Assembly (NCBI RefSeq): GCF_000425505.1
Contig: NZ_AUDO01000012.1
Coordinates: 62,001-126,000, forward strand
DNA length: 64,000 nt
Source: Flavobacterium frigidarium DSM 17623
GTDB taxonomy: Bacteria; Bacteroidota; Bacteroidia; Flavobacteriales; Flavobacteriaceae
Direction: 5' to 3'
The notes below the pieces were generated by a model. That model saw nothing but the letters and a program-made list of their open reading frames with translations. It made no database searches and had not been told where the DNA came from. The position numbers and the translations under genes are program-made. The first letter of the stretch is position 1; each line of letters starts with the position of its first letter. Of the stretch, positions 2,408 through 52,185 are shown piece by piece.

Positions 2408-3238
2408 ATGAAAAGCAGTATGTTGAAAAGGCTATTATTAATTACAGTTTTAAGTACGATTGTTTTAGCGTCCTGCAAAGAGCAAGAAAAAAGTGTTGAT
2501 AACGTATCAGATAAGCAATTTAATTCAAAATCTAAGACTTCAAACTTTAATTCATTGACTTTTGATGACTACTTGCCTGCGCCTTCAAAGAATCAAATTG
2601 TGGTTCATAAGTATTACACCTTCTCTTATGATAATAATGCGGAACAAGCAGAGTGGTTGGCTTACGAATTAAAAGAAAACTACATTGTAAACAATGACTT
2701 TAAAAGGCCTTATTTTATTGAAGATAAATTAGTAAAAGCAAAGTCAGCTGATTGGAGAAATTATAAAAAATCAGGTTATGATCGTGGGCATTTGTGTCCC
2801 GCTGGAGACATGGAATTTGACAAAGATGCCTATAATGATACTTTTTACACGTCAAACATTTCGCCTCAAAATCATAACTTTAATGCTGGTGTTTGGAATC
2901 GATTAGAGCAAAAAGTGCGTTACTGGGCTGTAAAATATGACGGTGTGAATGTAATCACAGGAGGAGTGCTTAAAAACACTACAAAGACAATAGGAACTGA
3001 GAACGTCGTAGTGCCGGATTACTTCTATAAAATTGTTTTTGATGATGATCATAACAAACTTAAAGCGATTGCCTTTTTAATGCCCAATAAAAAGAGTGAT
3101 GCTCCTTTATATACGTTTGTTGTTTCTATAGATCAAATTGAAGAGATGACCGGAATAGATTTTTTTCCAAATGTTAATGATGATATGGAGAATGCTTTAG
3201 AAAAGAATTCAGGATATAAAGATTGGGCTTTAAACTAG
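2408..3238 (+). CDS. DNA/RNA non-specific endonuclease, predicted lipoprotein
   Basis: A secreted nuclease of the NUC1/EndA family that cuts DNA and RNA with a beta-beta-alpha metal site. The N-terminus is a lipoprotein signal (hydrophobic stretch ending in VLASC, Cys near residue 22), so the mature protein is probably anchored in a membrane outside the cytoplasm. The signature DRGHL is present, with the catalytic His, and is followed by the metal-binding Asn region SNISPQNHNFNAGVWN. Length (276 aa) is normal. It may serve nutrient scavenging or clearing of extracellular DNA; this is inference. It ends head-to-head with rodA, which runs the other way 9 bases later. Confidence 0.92.
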   Translation: MKSSMLKRLLLITVLSTIVLASCKEQEKSVDNVSDKQFNSKSKTSNFNSLTFDDYLPAPSKNQIVVHKYYTFSYDNNAEQAEWLAYELKENYIVNNDFKRPYFIEDKLVKAKSADWRNYKKSGYDRGHLCPAGDMEFDKDAYNDTFYTSNISPQNHNFNAGVWNRLEQKVRYWAVKYDGVNVITGGVLKNTTKTIGTENVVVPDYFYKIVFDDDHNKLKAIAFLMPNKKSDAPLYTFVVSIDQIEEMTGIDFFPNVNDDMENALEKNSGYKDWALN

Positions 3239-3247
3239 CTTATAATT

Positions 3248-4483
3248 TTACCATTCGTTTACTTTATTAGCATCCATTTTTAAGAAAATAAATAGCAAGA
3301 TTGTGAATCCCCATAATCCAGATCCACCATATGAAAAGAATGGAAGTGGGACACCAATAGTAGGGAATACACCAACAACCATCGCAATATTTACAAAAAA
3401 GTGGATAAAAAGAATTCCAGCAACGCAATATCCATAAACACGACTAAATTTTGTTTTTTGTCTTTCTGCAAGGTAGATTACTCTCAGTAGCAAACCCGTA
3501 AATAGTCCAATTACAAAAAGTGATCCTAGAAAACCCCATTCCTCACCCACAGTAGTGAAAATATAATCGGTATGTTGTTCTGGAACAAAACCACCTTTTG
3601 TTTGCGTTCCTTCTAGAAATCCTTTTCCAATCCATCCTCCAGAGCCTATGGCAATTTCTGACTGATTTGTGTTGTATCCAATTCCTTTTAAGTCGACAGT
3701 TTTCCCAAGTAATATATTAAAACGGTCTCTATGGTGTTGCTTGAACACATTGTCAAAAACATAGTCAACAGACAGTACAAAACCAGAAATAAGAGCAAAA
3801 ATGATTCCGCTTGCAAGAGGATTTCTGTCTCCTAACCTCGACTTAAAATACACTGCAAAAATGACTAATAGTGATGCTAAAATGATGTAAATAGGTTCGA
3901 ATATAAGTGTAAGAACAAATAATAGGATTGCAATAAAACCAGTCCATACATACCAAGAAGGTAGACCTTCGCGATAAAGCACTAAGATAAATGCACTATA
4001 TATTAATGCACTCCCAGGATCTGGCTGTGGTAATATTAAGAAAACGGGTAACAATACGATTGCTAATGCCTGTATTTGTCTATTGACATCTTTTAAATTA
4101 ATTTGTGAGTCACTTAAATATTTAGCTAGAGCTAATGCTGTAGCTGCTTTTGCAAATTCTGAGGGCTGCAGTGTGAATCCTCCTATGGCGTACCAACAAC
4201 GCTGACCGGCAATAGTCTTACCAAAAAGAAATAGGCCTGCGAGTAGTATAAGCGCTCCTATAAAAATGATGCTGGCGTATTTTTCATAAAACTTACTATC
4301 TACAGCAAGAAGAATAAAAATCAAAGGAATAGTTAGTATTATGAAAATAAGTTGCTTGTCTGAGGTGCCATCTGTAGAAGATAAAGAAGACGAATAAATA
4401 TTCAACCATCCCATCACTACAAGTGCGGTGTATATAATAATACAAGTCCAATCAAGATTTTTTTTAATACTTTGATTTTTCAT
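3248..4483 (-). CDS. rodA: Rod shape-determining protein RodA (SEDS glycosyltransferase)
   Basis: An integral membrane SEDS-family peptidoglycan polymerase that works with PBP2 in the elongasome. About ten hydrophobic segments are visible. Family motifs include the QPSEFAK stretch in the middle and the C-terminal GVFPTIGVPLPFFSYGGSG block. 411 residues is within the usual range. It is the last gene of a minus-strand cluster mreB-mreC-mreD-mrdA-rodA, 16 bases downstream of mrdA, the usual order in Bacteroidetes. Confidence 0.96.
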   Translation of the reverse strand: MKNQSIKKNLDWTCIIIYTALVVMGWLNIYSSSLSSTDGTSDKQLIFIILTIPLIFILLAVDSKFYEKYASIIFIGALILLAGLFLFGKTIAGQRCWYAIGGFTLQPSEFAKAATALALAKYLSDSQINLKDVNRQIQALAIVLLPVFLILPQPDPGSALIYSAFILVLYREGLPSWYVWTGFIAILLFVLTLIFEPIYIILASLLVIFAVYFKSRLGDRNPLASGIIFALISGFVLSVDYVFDNVFKQHHRDRFNILLGKTVDLKGIGYNTNQSEIAIGSGGWIGKGFLEGTQTKGGFVPEQHTDYIFTTVGEEWGFLGSLFVIGLFTGLLLRVIYLAERQKTKFSRVYGYCVAGILFIHFFVNIAMVVGVFPTIGVPLPFFSYGGSGLWGFTILLFIFLKMDANKVNEW

Positions 4484-29913: not shown

Positions 29914-30145
29914 GAGCTATTTCCAGCTATCCACTGTATCTTTTTAAAAGGATAATTAACCTCTTAAAAAGGATGCCGTTACTATCTGGGCTACTACATT
30001 TAGTCTTTACAAAAGATCTCGGTGTTTTAAAGGTACAATAGAAGACATAACCAAAAGTAAAAATGCTTGCTGCATTAACAAATTAGTCCTGAATTAAGGT
30101 TTATATGAAGGTATTCAAGTCAGTAGTAAGTAATAGCAGTAATAA
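29914..30145. other. Gene-free stretch before the ppa promoter
   Basis: I see no credible gene, terminator or repeat here. An open frame running out of the end of the DUF5686 gene in another frame looks accidental. Confidence 0.5.
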
Positions 30146-33138: not shown

Positions 33139-33244
33139 AATAAATAGTATTTTTAAATTAAGCGAGAAAAAGGAATTGCAACAATAAAAGCTAAAGAAGA
33201 GTTTCTGCTTTAGCATTTTTTTTCTACTGAAAAATTTTCAGTAT

Positions 33245-33301
33245 CCATAACGAATTAGTTTCATTATGAAGAGGTTGCAATCAGTTCAAATTTTTCCTCT
33301 T
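33245..33301 (-). promoter_or_regulatory. Possible SAM-II-like riboswitch in the metK leader
   Basis: On the minus strand the stem AAGAGG/CCUCUU (33296-33301 with 33269-33274) encloses a 21-base loop ending in AUUGCAA, followed by AUAAUGAAACUAA. This resembles the SAM-II layout, in which a short stem encloses a loop ending in AUUGCAA and is followed by AUAAAUGUAGCUAA. The loop segment AACUGAUUG can pair with the downstream UAAUUCGUU apart from one mismatch, forming a pseudoknot. It begins only a few bases after the predicted transcription start. The comparison is from memory and needs a covariance search. Confidence 0.38.
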
Positions 33302-33311
33302 TATTAGTGCG

Positions 33312-33340: not shown

Positions 33341-33513
33341 ATTAAACTTAACTATTTTTTAGATTAAAATAAGTGATGTCAAAATGTGACTTACGACTTA
33401 AAATACTAACACATTTATTATGTTTTGTTAATTCTTCAAATATTATTTGGTGGTTTGGGATTTTGTTTGCAAATTTGGATTATAAATAAGAGATAATGTT
33501 AGCTATTAAACAA

Positions 33514-33564
33514 ATGATGTGTATGACGATTAAGGAGAGATCCTGGGAATGCGCTATTGTTTAA
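33514..33564 (+). CDS. Candidate Met/Cys leader peptide upstream of metY
   Basis: A 16-codon frame starting Met-Met-Cys-Met and containing a second Cys at residue 13, ending 26 bases before a strong terminator that itself ends about 30 bases before metY. Met and Cys are precisely the amino acids relevant to the downstream enzyme. The segment CTGGGA (33543-33548) inside the frame can pair with TCCCAG (33597-33602) of the terminator's 5' arm, a possible but short antiterminator. There is no ribosome-binding site, as usual in this phylum; the upstream bases are A-rich. It could be chance, since short frames are common. Confidence 0.45.
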   Translation: MMCMTIKERSWECAIV

Positions 33565-33590
33565 AATCTAATTTCACATACGATTTTTAA

Positions 33591-33621
33591 AAAGCCTCCC
33601 AGACATTGGGAGGCTTTTTTT
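33591..33621 (+). terminator. Terminator hairpin immediately upstream of metY (possible attenuator)
   Basis: An 11-bp perfect stem AAAGCCTCCCA/TGGGAGGCTTT with a 5-base loop and a T-run, ending 29 bases before the metY start codon. No gene precedes it on this strand except the candidate leader peptide, so its role is most simply attenuation of metY. Confidence 0.85.
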
Positions 33622-33650: not shown

Positions 33651-34925
33651 ATGAGCACAAACAAATTTGAAACAAATGCATTGCACGCCGGACATGACGT
33701 TACAAAACACGCCGGAACAAGAGCGGTGCCTATTTACCAAACATCATCGTATGTCTTTAATAACTCTGAACATGCAGCAAATTTATTTGCACTGTCAGAG
33801 GCGGGATATATTTACACACGTTTAAATAATCCTACAAATGATATTTTAGAACAACGTCTAGCTGCACTTGAGGGAGGAATTGCGGCTGTGGTAACTGCAT
33901 CTGGAACTGCTGCAATAACGACTGCACTACTAACGATATTAAAAACCGGTGACCACATCGTCGCTTCAAGTAGTTTGTATGGAGGAACTTTCAATTTACT
34001 GCAATCTACATTGCCTAGACTAGGAATCACAACCACATTTGTGGATCCTTCAAATCCTGATAATTTTGCCGATGCAGTGACTGATAATACAAAAGTCATT
34101 TTTATAGAAAGCTTAGGCAACCCTAAATTAGACGTTCTAGATATTGCAGCTATCGCAGTGCACTCAAAAGCAGCTAGGATTCCGCTAATGGTAGATAATA
34201 CAGTTGCTTCTCCTTATTTATTAAATCCTATTGTGCACGGAGCAAATATTGTTATTCACTCGCTTACCAAATACATTTCAGGAAACGGGACTTCACTAGG
34301 AGGCGCGATTATCGATGCGGGGACTTTTGACTGGAGTAGTGGTTGTTTTCCAGAATTTACTACTCCTAATGCGGGTTATCATGGACTCGTTTACCATGAA
34401 GCTTTAGGAGCGGCCGCATTTATAGCAAGAGTACGTATTGAGGGATTGCGAGATTACGGAGCAGCTTTGAGTCCGTTTAATGCTTTCCAAATCATTCAAG
34501 GTTTAGAAACATTGGCCGTTCGCGTTCAAAAGCATAGTGAAAATGGTTTGGCTTTAGCCAAGTGGTTAGAATCTCAAGATCAAGTGGCATGGGTTAATTA
34601 TCCAGGATTAAAATCAAGTAAATATTATGAATTGGCGCAACAGTACTTACCAAAAGGTCAAAACGGATTAGTAACCTTTGGTTTAAAAGGAGGATTTGAA
34701 GCAGCAAAAAAAGTTGCAGACAATACAGTGCTATTTTCACTTTTAGCAAATATAGGAGATACTAAATCTTTAATTATTCATCCTGCAAGTACAACGCATC
34801 AACAATTGTCAGATGAGCAGCAACTAAGTTCAGGAGTTTCAAAAGACTTAATTAGATTATCTGTAGGCTTAGAAAATATTGAGGATTTAAAAGAGGATTT
34901 ATTGCAAGTCTTCAACCAACTGTAG
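33651..34925 (+). CDS. metY: O-acetylhomoserine sulfhydrylase (aminocarboxypropyltransferase)
   Basis: A PLP enzyme that makes homocysteine from O-acetylhomoserine and sulfide. Start region FETNALHAGHD, the YTRLNNPTND substrate loop and the PLP-lysine stretch HSLTKYISGNG are typical of MetY, and 424 residues separates it from the shorter cystathionine gamma-synthase type. Its substrates come from the MetX domain at 35.9 kb and the sulfate-reduction genes at 43-51 kb. It lies directly behind a hairpin that may act as an attenuator. Confidence 0.95.
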   Translation: MSTNKFETNALHAGHDVTKHAGTRAVPIYQTSSYVFNNSEHAANLFALSEAGYIYTRLNNPTNDILEQRLAALEGGIAAVVTASGTAAITTALLTILKTGDHIVASSSLYGGTFNLLQSTLPRLGITTTFVDPSNPDNFADAVTDNTKVIFIESLGNPKLDVLDIAAIAVHSKAARIPLMVDNTVASPYLLNPIVHGANIVIHSLTKYISGNGTSLGGAIIDAGTFDWSSGCFPEFTTPNAGYHGLVYHEALGAAAFIARVRIEGLRDYGAALSPFNAFQIIQGLETLAVRVQKHSENGLALAKWLESQDQVAWVNYPGLKSSKYYELAQQYLPKGQNGLVTFGLKGGFEAAKKVADNTVLFSLLANIGDTKSLIIHPASTTHQQLSDEQQLSSGVSKDLIRLSVGLENIEDLKEDLLQVFNQL

Positions 34926-35145
34926 TCTTATCATGAGTTGATTATGCTTGGTTTTTAAAGAACTGGTATTCATAGGTTAAGTAAATGTTATAGAATTTTA
35001 ATCTCAAGTTATAAAATTATTATATGTAGCTTAAAATCGAGTTAAAATATTGATTATCATTAGGAATACAGGATAAAAATCATCAAATTTGCTTCAAGAT
35101 AATAAAACGATAAATATTAAAGATTTCTAACCGAATATATATAAT
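34926..35145. other. Gene-free stretch between metY and the next leader
   Basis: AT-rich, no gene. No terminator for metY is evident; the first strong hairpin downstream is the one at 35245-35279. A promoter for the leader frame at 35146 should lie here, but I find only weak matches (CAAATTTG at 35084-35091). Confidence 0.4.
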
Positions 35146-35211
35146 ATGAACAGACATTTTTTTAAAAATAATTATTCTTCGATGAACATTTTATTTATAA
35201 AAGTGGGCTGA
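35146..35211 (+). CDS. Candidate 21-residue leader peptide of a transcription attenuator
   Basis: A 21-codon frame beginning Met-Asn-Arg-His-Phe-Phe and ending Asn-Ile-Leu-Phe-Ile-Lys-Val-Gly. Its stop codon lies 2 bases before a 12-base segment (35214-35225) that is repeated exactly as part of the terminator (35257-35268) and can pair with the terminator's 5' arm (35249-35260, 11 of 12 positions). A ribosome finishing the peptide would cover that segment and let the terminator form; a stalled one would leave it free to form the antiterminator. Which amino acid or condition is sensed is unclear: Phe, Asn and Ile are enriched, Thr and Cys are absent. Confidence 0.6.
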   Translation: MNRHFFKNNYSSMNILFIKVG

Positions 35212-35244
35212 TCATATTCCAAAAGTAAGAGTTACTACAACTTG

Positions 35245-35279
35245 AACCCTTTTGGTATATTCCAAAAGGGTTTTTTTTT
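35245..35279 (+). terminator. Terminator hairpin of the 35.1-kb attenuator
   Basis: An 11-bp perfect stem AACCCTTTTGG/CCAAAAGGGTT with a 6-base loop and nine T residues. The same sequence ATATTCCAAAAG occurs just upstream, making a mutually exclusive antiterminator possible. It could also simply end metY transcription. Confidence 0.88.
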
Positions 35280-35535: not shown

Positions 35536-35657
35536 TTGGTAGTGTCGGCTTTTTATAGTGTTTTACACGCAGGTAATTTCTGAATTGTTAGGTTCAGCGA
35601 TGTCTTGCGTTTTTTTGTTACAGATTGTTTCTAGCGTGAAAACTAGGCTAATAATAT

Positions 35658-35688: not shown

Positions 35689-35716
35689 CATCATTAAGTT
35701 CACATACGTATTGAAA

Positions 35717-35823
35717 TGTTATAAAGAAAGGACGAGGGATTAGACCCGATGAAGCCTTAGCAACCCTTTGAGAAATCGAAGAAGGTGCTGCATTCTACCA
35801 CTCCCAAAAGTGGAAAGATAACA
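35717..35823 (+). promoter_or_regulatory. SAM-I (S-box) riboswitch upstream of the metX-thrA fusion gene
   Basis: The S-box core is clear: GAGGGAUUAGACCCGAUGAA, then GCCUUAGCAACC, then AAGGUGCUGCAUUCUACC. A P1 stem forms between TGTTAT (35717-35722) and ATAACA (35818-35823). SAM binding should lower expression of the downstream homoserine/methionine gene. A weak CTAG/CTAG hairpin followed by a T-rich run (35836-35861) may be the expression platform; I am not sure whether control is at transcription or translation. Confidence 0.92.
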
Positions 35824-35898
35824 ACGAGAATTTTTCTAGTATTTACCTAGTTTTTTCTTTTTAATATTTCCAAACACAAATCAAAATCAATTAAAGAT

Positions 35899-38800
35899 TT
35901 GACATTGGAAAATAAACCAACACACATAACCATACATAATTTCACCACGCACAATGGTGCTATTTATGCAAGCCTTAATTTGAGTTATCAAGTTTTTGGA
36001 GCTCCGCTGCATACCGCTCCCATTATTGTGATCAATCATGCCTTAACGGGAAACTCTCAAGTTATTGGAGAATCCGGTTGGTGGAATGATATCGTAGGAA
36101 TTGACAAGACAATCGACACTAGAAAATATACCATCGTCTCGTTTGATGTGCCAGGAAATGGCTTCAACTCAGTAACTATTGAGAATTATAGAGATTTTAT
36201 TGCCAGAGATATTGCTCGAATTTTTATCGAAGGACTAAAGTTCTTAAAGATCGATAATCTATTTGCGCTCATTGGCGGCTCTGTAGGTGGAGGCATTGCT
36301 TGGGAAATTTTGGCCTTAGAGCCTAAACTAGCACAAAATTTTATTCCCATTGCTACAGATTGGAAAGCAACAGACTGGTTAATTGCGAATTGTTATTTAC
36401 AAGAGCAAATACTGAACAATTCTAAAAAACCAATTGAGGACGCACGCATACACGCCATGCTGTGTTATCGAACTCCCGAGTCATTCAAAGAGAAATTCAA
36501 TAGAGACATCAATGTACAACTCGAAACTTTTCAAGTGGAAAGTTGGTTGAACTACCACGGTGAGAAACTAGAAAAAAGATTTCAGCTAGCGGCTTACAAA
36601 ATGATGAATCAATTATTGAAAACAATTGATATTACTAGAAATCAGGAGTCATTAGAATCAATCATTTCAAAAGTTGATGCTAATATTTACATCGTAGGAA
36701 TCAACTCTGATTTGTTTTTTACCGCAAAAGAGAATCGAGAGACCTATAACGAAATCAAAAAATTTAAAAATAATGTGTTCTATAGCGAAATTGACTCTGC
36801 GCATGGTCATGATGCTTTTTTAATGGAATACGAACAATTAGACAATTTATTAGAAGTTGTTTTCAAAAATAAAAAGCAGATGAAAATAGTAAAATTTGGT
36901 GGAAAATCTTTGGCAAACGGCGAAGGAATCGAAACAGTCTTAAATATTTTAGAAGAGAAGGTAAAGCAAGACGAGAAATTTGCAGTAGTAGTTTCTGCTC
37001 GTGCAAAAGCGACAGATGAACTGGGTGATATTTTGACAATTGCGGCTAAAAATGGAAATTATAAGCCCTTACTTGAAAGTTTTAAAAACTACCAAAAAGA
37101 CGGTTTTGATGCAGTTGATTTCTCCGTTGAATTTGATAAACTAGATAAATTGTTTGAAGGCGTAAGCCTAATAGGTGACTACAGTGAAAAAATTAAAGAC
37201 CAAGTTTTGGCTCAAGGTGAGGTGCTTTCGGCAAAATTACTAGTATTTTTATTGAATCAAAAAAACATTGCTGCAAAATTAGCTGATACCAGAGAGCTGA
37301 TTATAACAGACTCTAATTTTGGTGATGCACAACCTCTAGAGGCTACTTCGAAAAAGAATATTATCCAAGTTTTCAAAGAAAATAAAGACGCTATTCTAGT
37401 GCTTACCGGTTTTATTGGGTCGAATGCGAAACAAGAAACGACTACGCTAGGTAGAAATGGAAGCAATTATACAGCATCATTGATTGCAAATTATATTAAC
37501 GCAGAAGAACTGCAGAATTTTACACATGTAGACGGAATCTATACTGCTAATCCTGAGCTGGTACTCGATGCTAAAAAGATTGAATCGCTTTCTTATAACG
37601 AGGCAAATGAGATGGCTAATTTTGGAGCGAATATTCTGCATGCAAAAACAATTATTCCGTTGTTAGAGAAAAATATTCCACTTCGAATATTAAATACCTT
37701 CAACCATGAAAACAAAGGGACTTTAATTACATCTAACTCTAATGCGTCGGGAATTAAAACGCTTTCTGTTTTAGAAAATGTTTCATTAGTAAATTTAGAA
37801 GGTAGAGGTTTACTTGGAAAAACGGGAGTTGATGCTCGAATTTTTAGAGTAATGGGTGATAATGATATCAGTGTCAGTATCATTTCGCAAGGTTCATCTG
37901 AACGAGGAATTGGCCTCGTTGTCGCCGCTGATAAAGCTTCAAAAGCAATGATTGAACTGGAAAAAGAATTCGAAAATGATTTTTATTCCAAGGATGTCAA
38001 CAAAATTACGGTGGTTGATAACGTATCAGTTATTTCGATAATTGGGCAAGATTTAAGTACATTTCATAAGCCTTACACAGCGTTGATAAAAAATAAAATT
38101 GTTCCTATTTTATTCAACAATACGGTTACAGGTAAAAATGTAAGTTTGGTGGTTAAAAAATCTGAACTTAACAAAGCATTGAACGTAATTCATGGAGAGA
38201 TTTTTGGCGTAGCAAAAAAAATCAATATTGCTATTTTTGGACATGGTTTAGTGGGTGGAACGCTAATTAATCAAATCTTGGAATCGGCGGAAGCAATTGA
38301 AAAAAGAAAAGATGTTAAGTTAAATGTGTTTGCAATTGCAAACTCTAAAAGTATACTCTTAAATAAAAACGGTGTTTCAACAGATTGGAAAAACGAAATC
38401 CAAACCAATGGAGTTTCGTATACAATTGATGATGTGATCGCTTATGCAAATGAACATCATCTTGAAAATTTAATTGCTGTTGATAATACGGCGAGCGCTA
38501 CTTTTGTAGAAAACTATATTTCGCTTGCTGAGAATAGTTTTGATTTAATTTCGTCTAATAAAGTTGCCAATACTTTGAGTTATGGTTTTTATAAAGACTT
38601 AAGAACGGTACTTGCTGAAAACCAAAAGAACTATTTGTACGAAACAAACGTAGGAGCAGGGTTGCCATTAATTGATACGATAAAATTATTGCATCTTTCG
38701 GGTGAAAACATCACTAAAATTAAAGGCGTTTTCTCTGGAACGTTAAGTTATTTGTTCAATCATTTTTCTGCCAAGGATGTTCCTTTTAGCGAAATATTAA

Positions 38801-39291
38801 AAGAGGCGATTGATAGCGGATTTACAGAGCCAGATCCAAGAGAAGATTTATGCGGTAATGATGTAGGGAGAAAATTATTAATCCTTGCTAGAGAATTAGA
38901 TTTACAAAATGAATTTGAAGAAGTGGCTATTCAAAATCTGATTCCGGAACATTTACGTGAAGGAAGTGCTGCTGATTTCTTAACGAAGCTTAAAGAATTT
39001 GATTCTATTTATGATAAAATAAAATCAGATCAAAAACCAAACCACGTGCTGAGATACATCGGTGAATTATCGGGAGATTTACAACACGACAAAGGAATTT
39101 TGGAAGTAAAATTAGTTTCCGTACCTTCGGATACCGCTTTGGGAGGCTTAAAAGGTTCTGATTCATTTTTCGAAATTTACACAGAATCTTACGGAGACCG
39201 ACCAATTGTCATTCAAGGAGCCGGAGCCGGATCTGCAGTAACAGCGAGAGGGGTTTTTGGGGATATCTTGAGACTGTCTGATAAAGGGTAA
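35899..39291 (+). CDS. thrA: Trifunctional fusion: homoserine O-acetyltransferase, aspartokinase and homoserine dehydrogenase
   Basis: One 1130-codon frame holds three enzymes. Residues 1-325 are a MetX-type alpha/beta-hydrolase with nucleophile elbow GGSVGG (Ser128) and the GHDAF catalytic His304. Residues 328-770 are an aspartokinase with VKFGGKS (the usual KFGGTS with Lys for Thr) and ACT domains. Residues 775-1130 are homoserine dehydrogenase with the NAD motif FGHGLVGG. It therefore phosphorylates aspartate, makes homoserine and acetylates it for methionine synthesis. The frame starts with TTG (or a TTG two codons later); no in-frame ATG precedes the conserved sequence. An ATG at 36880 lies exactly at the kinase start, so a separate aspartokinase-dehydrogenase product is possible. 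A SAM-I riboswitch precedes it. Confidence 0.94.
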   Translation: MTLENKPTHITIHNFTTHNGAIYASLNLSYQVFGAPLHTAPIIVINHALTGNSQVIGESGWWNDIVGIDKTIDTRKYTIVSFDVPGNGFNSVTIENYRDFIARDIARIFIEGLKFLKIDNLFALIGGSVGGGIAWEILALEPKLAQNFIPIATDWKATDWLIANCYLQEQILNNSKKPIEDARIHAMLCYRTPESFKEKFNRDINVQLETFQVESWLNYHGEKLEKRFQLAAYKMMNQLLKTIDITRNQESLESIISKVDANIYIVGINSDLFFTAKENRETYNEIKKFKNNVFYSEIDSAHGHDAFLMEYEQLDNLLEVVFKNKKQMKIVKFGGKSLANGEGIETVLNILEEKVKQDEKFAVVVSARAKATDELGDILTIAAKNGNYKPLLESFKNYQKDGFDAVDFSVEFDKLDKLFEGVSLIGDYSEKIKDQVLAQGEVLSAKLLVFLLNQKNIAAKLADTRELIITDSNFGDAQPLEATSKKNIIQVFKENKDAILVLTGFIGSNAKQETTTLGRNGSNYTASLIANYINAEELQNFTHVDGIYTANPELVLDAKKIESLSYNEANEMANFGANILHAKTIIPLLEKNIPLRILNTFNHENKGTLITSNSNASGIKTLSVLENVSLVNLEGRGLLGKTGVDARIFRVMGDNDISVSIISQGSSERGIGLVVAADKASKAMIELEKEFENDFYSKDVNKITVVDNVSVISIIGQDLSTFHKPYTALIKNKIVPILFNNTVTGKNVSLVVKKSELNKALNVIHGEIFGVAKKINIAIFGHGLVGGTLINQILESAEAIEKRKDVKLNVFAIANSKSILLNKNGVSTDWKNEIQTNGVSYTIDDVIAYANEHHLENLIAVDNTASATFVENYISLAENSFDLISSNKVANTLSYGFYKDLRTVLAENQKNYLYETNVGAGLPLIDTIKLLHLSGENITKIKGVFSGTLSYLFNHFSAKDVPFSEILKEAIDSGFTEPDPREDLCGNDVGRKLLILARELDLQNEFEEVAIQNLIPEHLREGSAADFLTKLKEFDSIYDKIKSDQKPNHVLRYIGELSGDLQHDKGILEVKLVSVPSDTALGGLKGSDSFFEIYTESYGDRPIVIQGAGAGSAVTARGVFGDILRLSDKG

Positions 39292-51878: not shown

Positions 51879-51906
51879 CTTTGCAGTGTTCCTATATTTA
51901 TTGAAA

Positions 51907-52017
51907 GTTATCACGAAAGGCGGAGGGAAAGACCCAATGAAACCTTAGCAACCCTTTATCTTTAAAGAAGGTGCTACATTCTACTTTATACTGAATTCAG
52001 TATCTAAGATAGATAAC
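51907..52017 (+). promoter_or_regulatory. SAM-I (S-box) riboswitch upstream of split metH
   Basis: The core GGAGGGAAAGACCCAAUGAA, CCUUAGCAACC and AAGGUGCUACAUUCUAC is an S-box aptamer. P1 pairs GTTATC (51907-51912) with GATAAC (52012-52017). A palindromic ATACTGAATTCAGTAT forms an additional arm. Downstream, an ATACT/AGTAT hairpin (near 52024-52043) and a T-rich run before 52080 may act as the platform. It should repress methionine synthase when SAM is plentiful. Confidence 0.92.
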
Positions 52018-52100
52018 ACAAGAATACTTCTACAGTATTTCTCAACAATTTTCTTGACAACATATCGATATTTTTTTAGAGCAGATCAACGGTGCATTTT

Positions 52101-52185
52101 AACCACGATCCTTCCTGCTGTACGCTATATCTATTGCGCCGAACACCGGCACAATAGGATGTCGCTTCCATCAGGGCTAAAGAGA
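52101..52185 (-). repeat. Interspersed hairpin repeat, copy A
   Basis: An 85-base element with an inner stem (TATTGCGCCG against CGGCACAATA) and, on the minus strand, an AGCCCTGATGGAAGCG start and a TATAGCGTACAGCAGGA end. It shares these end motifs with copy B at 54117-54215 (opposite orientation). From memory, closely related elements are common between genes in Flavobacterium genomes. It lies between a riboswitch and its gene, within the expected mRNA leader. Confidence 0.65.

Follow-up and report, generated by a model that had tools for sequence, protein, structure and literature searches.

The segment 35146-35279 of the window (the whole stretch of DNA analysed, 64,000 nucleotides of Flavobacterium frigidarium DSM 17623) has the layout of a transcription attenuator and lies between metY and a gene for an orphan small protein. 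Which signal, if any, may such a leader read? Its 21 codons include no Cys, one internal Met and four Phe, Cys and Met codons are not enriched in it, and the window leader itself lacks the hallmark of an amino acid-specific attenuator. An initial annotation had proposed ribosome-controlled termination with an unassigned signal, and considered the locus a candidate for an undescribed system. Judging from its relatives, we think it likely that the feature belongs, as unit B, to a Flavobacterium family of transcription attenuators that act on sulfur amino acid genes under ribosome control, and in which a stalled ribosome would switch the downstream gene on, and that the window copy most likely represents a recoded or generalised translation sensor. 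The features are listed in Table 1.

Table 1. Features of the locus; positions refer to the window, except in the last row, where they refer to two loci of relatives.
Feature	Position	Strand	Details
Unit A leader peptide before metY	33496..33564	+	MLAIKQMMCMTIKERSWECAIV, stop; Met-Met-Cys-Met
Unit A antiterminator arm CTGGGA, inside leader frame	33543..33548	+	pairs with 33597-33602 (TCCCAG)
Unit A terminator	33592..33619	+	AAGCCTCCC/GGGAGGCTT, T run; not on the list of the simple terminator scan
metY, O-acetylhomoserine sulfhydrylase-like PLP enzyme	33651..34925	+	Cys_Met_Meta_PP domain (Pfam); name presumed from family and context
Probable promoter region	35041..35100	+	CAAATTTG (35084-35091) near flavobacterial TAnnTTTG -7 box; CATTAGGAA (35058-35066) upstream
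Unit B leader peptide frame	35146..35211	+	21 codons, MNRHFFKNNYSSMNILFIKVG, stop; codon -5 TTT (Phe), -1 GGC (Gly)
Unit B antiterminator arm, ATATTCCAAAAG	35214..35225	+	11/12 pairing with 35249-35260
Intrinsic terminator of unit B	35244..35279	+	stem 35244-35255/35262-35273, then T run
Small target gene, 64 aa	35341..35535	+	predicted N-terminal helix; near-invariant C-terminal tail (here MYSKENDTLFI); no Cys
Probable small-gene terminator	35567..35617	+	hairpin, then T run; 35536-35625: -21 kcal/mol, z -2.33; 4/200 shuffles equally stable
SAM-I riboswitch	35716..35824	+	Rfam; before metX-type/aspartokinase/homoserine dehydrogenase fusion gene
Fusion gene	35899-39291	+	alpha/beta-hydrolase (metX-type), amino-acid kinase/ACT and homoserine dehydrogenase domains (Pfam)
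Divergent 58-aa small proteins	L284 1849-2025, L285 1859-2035	reverse-complement coordinates	below profile threshold

Re-reading of the sequence found the leader frame, the exact 12-base copy and the terminator where the initial annotation had placed them, and bore out the pairing of the copy with the 5′ arm; the small gene, the SAM-I switch and the homoserine fusion gene that it named next were confirmed as well (Rfam, Pfam). The segments 35214-35225 and 35257-35268 are identical, and a chance origin of this copy was rejected, since 0/2,000 first-order Markov simulations of 35146-35245 matched the 3′ arm at 12/12 (at least 11/12 in 5/2,000, at least 10/12 in 38/2,000). The duplex of antiterminator and 5′ arm has -9.2 kcal/mol, and a fraction of 0.015 of 200 shuffles was equally stable; the contiguous-pair test, which is cruder than the duplex energy, was not significant for it (7 bp, 0.235). 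The fold of the 134 bases is stable (z -3.82), and that of 35205-35262, which excludes the 3′ arm, is nothing unusual (z -0.82). Antiterminator and terminator compete for one shared arm. Because the antiterminator (-8.8 kcal/mol) is much weaker than the terminator (-17.0 kcal/mol), switching would have to be kinetic. The putative -7 box upstream departs in its first base from the consensus TAnnTTTG given in passages of a study on Flavobacterium (PMC9723704).

A second unit of related build, unit A (33496-33619), precedes metY in the window; units of this kind, with the antiterminator inside the leader frame, stand before metY or before unit B in many loci. In an Rfam scan of the window, neither unit A nor unit B reached the gathering score of any family, and their identity with riboswitches, SAM-I and SAM-II included, was rejected on this ground; both also contain leader frames.

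We compared 101 loci, namely the window and 100 relatives chosen for diversity (99 from among the matches listed, and one from genome G019). In 97/101 loci, unit B precedes either the small gene or a metY-small gene pair. With one pattern (CCTTTTGG…CCAAAAGG), 84 of the 101 show terminator B ahead of the small gene, and 83 of these have a readable leader; in the sole terminator-positive locus without a leader (L091), the sequence in front of the small gene is only about 166 bases long. Among the 17 pattern-negative loci, 11 have metY as the immediate upstream neighbour of the small gene and unit B before metY (leaders displayed for G010 and G135), L086 and L120 were missed by the pattern and are visible by eye, L100, L108 and L110 have unit A only, and L144 is anchored on a paralogue.

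A typical unit B leader reads MQEFFKIASKSQMNKSLQMNKMFNVARICVRVC, with a stop codon that merges into the antiterminator (TGATACTAAAAG), and most leaders of the relatives end in Cys codons, e.g. …ICVRVC before the stop. Cys is present in 72/76 distinct unit B leader peptides (162/2,262 residues), occupies the last position in 62/76 and position -5 in 54/76, and is missing from four (L065, L122, L141 and the window); these counts include the leader of L106, which is probably read in the wrong frame. After redundancy reduction, 23/27 leaders contain Cys, which makes up 50/701 residues versus 0.62% in 34 long frames of the window. Positions other than Cys are conserved too (Ala at -8 in 59/76, Val at -2 in 63/76, Val at -9 in 50/76), the endings differ among clades (LVC, RVH, VIY, TSF, KVG), and the relatives repeatedly show a leader hairpin that spans the Cys codons (mean z of -0.92 for 66 segments, with mononucleotide shuffles as reference), although none is present over this segment in the window (z +0.33). 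Coding constraint on this short ORF upstream of the terminator, the general mark of an attenuator, is suggested by an omega of about 0.23, for which 226 close but mutually dependent pairs were used. The attenuator layout proposed for the window thus fits both in its anatomy and in the constraint on its leader.

Six Flavobacterium genomes without a profile-detected small protein (G012, G013, G014, G020, G021, G023) were read over 480 bases before metY. All six have a Met/Cys-rich unit A leader there, e.g. MNFTMCNMCMMMWNNPQRKPIA and MKFTMCHMCCMMTENSAELTIA, each followed by a stop codon, and in 4/6 a unit B with terminator and Met/Cys-rich leader follows, e.g. MKNSISNKMMMCCMMCFCAPPKYCQK and MIFNTNTMMMAMMMMNMMMFTTPYCLKSTS, likewise ending at a stop codon; in one of the four (L283) the pattern overlooked the terminator, which was recognised by eye. 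In the remaining two (L288, L290), a short second frame contains Cys but no unit B-type terminator follows. These leaders before metY give the clearest sign that Met/Cys supply is the signal of the family. At the family level, leaders are enriched in Cys and Met codons, and most relatives have Cys or Met/Cys leaders, so that the signal, unassigned in the initial annotation, can be named for the family: most likely, it acts by ribosome-mediated attenuation that senses sulfur amino acids.

The pairing was compared between loci by duplex energies, as a test of contiguous pairing is uninformative in DNA this rich in A and T (12/83 below 0.05). Antiterminator and arm of the same unit B pair better than swapped ones (62 distinct cases, mean -8.31 versus -7.83; 2/5,000 permutations as low), and 51/62 duplexes are better than 95% of shuffles; for unit A the corresponding means are -9.87 and -8.85 (53 cases, 0/5,000 permutations as low). 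Compensatory variation of the terminator was read by eye in L126 (AATCC/GGATT) and L284 (AAGTCC/GGACTT).

A sequence-structure model of unit B (R1), with only 6 base pairs and 30 training rows, matches the window at E 4.9e-9, which is so by construction, the window being one of these rows. Among 121 genomes (taken as G000-G036 and G060-G143, consistent with their handle numbers), R1 matched at E<1e-6 in 54/56 genomes positive for the small protein, the exceptions being G007 and G136, and in 0/65 negative ones; this zero is partly a matter of sensitivity, given the divergent units in G009 and G011 and the four unit B copies before metY in G013, G014, G020 and G021, for which R1 lists nothing at E<=0.01. 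Among 199 genomes of the family, strong matches were confined to the two Flavobacterium genomes, and weak ones in two other genera (L270, L271) were rejected as ordinary terminators without leader. Model and synteny agree on the homology of unit B, which keeps the same neighbourhood in the relatives. The corresponding model of unit A (R2) finds the copy at 33592..33619 at E 1e-13, this copy being among its 21 training sequences. In the genome of the window, unit B is matched once, and of six unit A matches counted one is strong.

Closest among the relatives found is Flavobacterium sp. 14A, whose leader MKRHFFKNIYSSMNILFIKVG likewise lacks Cys, so the loss of Cys from unit B is common to two species, with TTT at codon -5 and GGC at -1; sp. 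28A has both unit A and unit B, with the B leader MGKHFFRNNKSLLITLFVKIC (…LLITLFVKIC before the stop). Between the window and sp. 14A, 3/66 columns differ in the leader, 0/45 in its second half together with the antiterminator, and 3/60 in the promoter region, against 10/45 in the 5′ UTR and 48/120 in the spacer preceding the promoter region; the loop differs at 5/18, the terminator at 5/34 and the small gene at 20/195. The small gene is intact, with 15 synonymous versus 3 non-synonymous codon changes. As the leader is conserved while its flanks diverge, the window copy appears to be constrained in spite of its lost sensing codons. Freely changing leader codons, which the initial annotation took for the mark of a mere metY terminator, were seen neither here nor in the family, and a plain metY terminator was rejected. 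Before the small gene, the window and sp. 14A have unit B only. L100, L108 and L110, which are near the window by small-protein identity, have unit A only, which suggests that unit B is dispensable; their unit A leaders before the small gene and that of sp. 28A, read by eye, contain no Cys, and in the former three this fits a relaxed regulation in the clade of the window. The unit A of metY keeps Met-Cys in the window and in L108.

In the mechanism we propose from these comparisons, a ribosome would translate the leader as RNA polymerase is transcribing it. If charged tRNA is short and the ribosome stalls inside the leader, 35214-35225 would be free to pair with 35249-35260, the terminator would be blocked and the small gene transcribed; a ribosome that reaches the stop codon would cover 35214-35225, the terminator would form and the small gene would be off. 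By the usual ribosome footprint, most of 35214-35225 would be hidden when the ribosome is at the stop codon, but not when it stalls at least five codons earlier, from which we infer that a stall means on and a completed leader off. This polarity would suit a starvation-induced gene. In the common form the sensing codons would be those for Cys, mainly at position -5, and for Met. A stall at the terminal Cys, the commonest Cys position, should still mask the antiterminator, which counts against this explanation. Being without Cys and with one internal Met, the window leader is classed as a derived variant and not as a Cys sensor. As frame, antiterminator and terminator are kept in the window and sp. 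14A although the Cys codons are gone, a recoded or generalised sensor appears most likely.

One may object that the sulfur sensor in the clade of the window has simply decayed, leaving a hairpin that serves mainly as unregulated terminator of the metY mRNA, with leaky read-through into the small gene. The Phe and Gly codons which the window has at -5 and -1, where most relatives have Cys, and the absence of unit B from three near relatives (L100, L108, L110) would fit such a remnant, and in the simple scan the plus strand from metY to 35244 contains no other terminator-like site. A decayed unit in the related genome G019 (L144, 477-671 and about 2900-3260; L009) would fit as well: its leader B has TGA at a Cys position and the small gene behind it an internal TGA, and a paralogue lies upstream of metY. 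However, a relaxed leader would hardly be expected to remain nearly identical to that of sp. 14A, and without change in its second half and antiterminator, between a 5′ UTR and a spacer that diverge, and the intact small gene and the conserved promoter region also argue against it. We therefore regard this reading as possible but unlikely.

Two further readings concern the signal. Nascent-peptide arrest is known from TnaC, where it occurs with tryptophan, and by analogy the end of the leader might stall the ribosome at the stop codon on a metabolite and mask the antiterminator. The conserved non-Cys residues at -8, -2 and -9 would agree with this, as would the predominance of the terminal Cys, where a stall would cover the antiterminator according to the ribosome footprint known in general. 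The leader end varies between clades, however, and unit B leaders before metY contain runs of Met and Cys, which together indicate codon supply, and the recurrent leader hairpin of the relatives could explain the residue pattern. The NILFIKV stretch that the initial annotation suggested as arrest sequence is not supported as such, being shared with sp. 14A and absent from sp. 28A and the other 82 pattern-read leaders. An arrest mechanism seems improbable to us. It is more doubtful still, and in our opinion very improbable, that the change of codon -5 from Cys (TGT) to Phe (TTT) has turned the copy into a sensor of Phe supply. Phe is found at -5 in 5/76 peptides (window, L065, L070, L111, L114) as well as in sp. 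28A and 14A, and the window leader has further Phe codons; but TGT to TTT is a single-base change and an easy route of loss, L070, L111 and L114 still end in Cys, and Phe has no link to the neighbouring sulfur genes. The recoded or generalised translation sensor remains the reading we prefer for the window copy.

The small target gene, described before as an orphan, proved to be conserved in much of the genus, and the window protein has no match in Pfam. A profile of 8 members finds the small protein in 176/398 Flavobacterium genomes; with a profile of 59 members, 3/397 genomes of the family were positive, all of them Flavobacterium (1/237 genera), and among the genomes searched it is seen only in this genus. 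NCBIfam gave nothing credible (only six single-member matches, best E 0.011), tblastn found no plasmid match at E 1e-5, and a PDB match to Crov588 (E 3e-16) was discarded as a pile of weak repeat matches, none of which passes singly. The AlphaFold2 model shows an N-terminal helix and is otherwise of low confidence (mean pLDDT 64), not good enough for fold comparison. The 101 loci yield 100 distinct small proteins, one of which (L144) is the paralogue; Phe -2, Asn -6, Glu -7, Tyr -10, Met -11 and Leu -15 are invariant in them, the last residue is Ile in 98/100, and the tail has the consensus MYSxENxxLFI. They contain 1 Cys in 6,743 residues, compared with the 0.62% of the 34 long window frames, which fits synthesis during Cys shortage. 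The hairpin behind the gene, its probable terminator, was not picked up by the simple terminator scan.

Divergent small proteins of 58 amino acids, which end in EENEFLFI and NENEFLFI, lie behind tandem A and B units in the profile-negative genomes G009 and G011, so that the profile does not capture the whole family. Some genomes have a paralogue with the same C-terminal tail upstream of metY (e.g. L077, L130, L144). In L077 (about 700-925), where it follows a unit B-type terminator, and also in L084, L130, L183 and L219, the main small gene comes about 2 kb downstream of the paralogue.

The C-terminal Ile has a role in the interaction of the CysE tail with CysK. The free and near-invariant Ile of the small protein recalls this tail, which may be a lead and is no result. 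The CysE of this genome ends in KIKEIR, without a free C-terminal Ile tail of the small-protein type. Binding of the CysE tail in CysK, and of CdiA-CT to CysK, is treated in two papers (PMC5562914; PMC4961446). By this analogy one might speculate that, when sulfur amino acids are short, the near-Cys-free small protein is made and its free tail (MYSxENxxLFI-COOH) docks into and redirects an enzyme of sulfur assimilation, with Met and Cys leader attenuators in tandem as the gate of its synthesis, and with this gate recoded to another translation signal in the window clade. We consider this chain as a whole improbable.

The window holds further RNA elements. A SAM-II aptamer lies upstream of metK (33200-33305, minus strand), another SAM-I aptamer is found at 51905-52019 (plus strand), and together with the SAM-I switch of Table 1 they indicate that SAM genes are under several RNA controls. 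Two Flavo-1 RNA motifs were seen at 29916-29996 and 52107-52182, both on the minus strand.

Taken together, these data suggest that Flavobacterium has a family of Met/Cys attenuators with two units, for which no description was found in the literature searched, and may link an orphan small protein of much of the genus to sulfur amino acid supply. They also provide a natural series in which the sensing codons of a leader vanish while the switch is kept, so that a change of signal of an attenuator may be studied between close species. The claim of an undescribed system may hold for the family of units A and B and its small target, whereas the kind of mechanism is known; the open PMC titles searched include no description of the units or of the target. 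Passages on F. psychrophilum give clues to leader-peptide attenuation before amino acid operons (PMC9723704), in the same genus and by the same proposed kind of mechanism; these passages mention no methionine/cysteine leader and no small target gene. In the main text of another paper (PMC2965389), no word starts with Bacteroid or Flavobacter. The nearest functional parallel, likened by title alone, may be the leaderless polycysteine short ORFs of mycobacteria, which according to that title attenuate operons in response to cysteine (Canestrari 2020, cited in PMC13236596). SAM-I and SAM-II riboswitches (RF00162, RF01726) adjoin methionine/SAM genes in the window, as units A and B do; unlike them, units A and B carry leader frames and match no Rfam family at gathering score. 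The trp, his and leu operons have ribosome-mediated transcription attenuators with amino acid leader peptides. Unit B would resemble these in its short leader frame, in an antiterminator that competes with an intrinsic terminator and in the proposed stall-dependent read-through; it differs in that the antiterminator arm directly follows the stop codon, the target is an orphan small protein, and the window copy has lost the regulatory codons.
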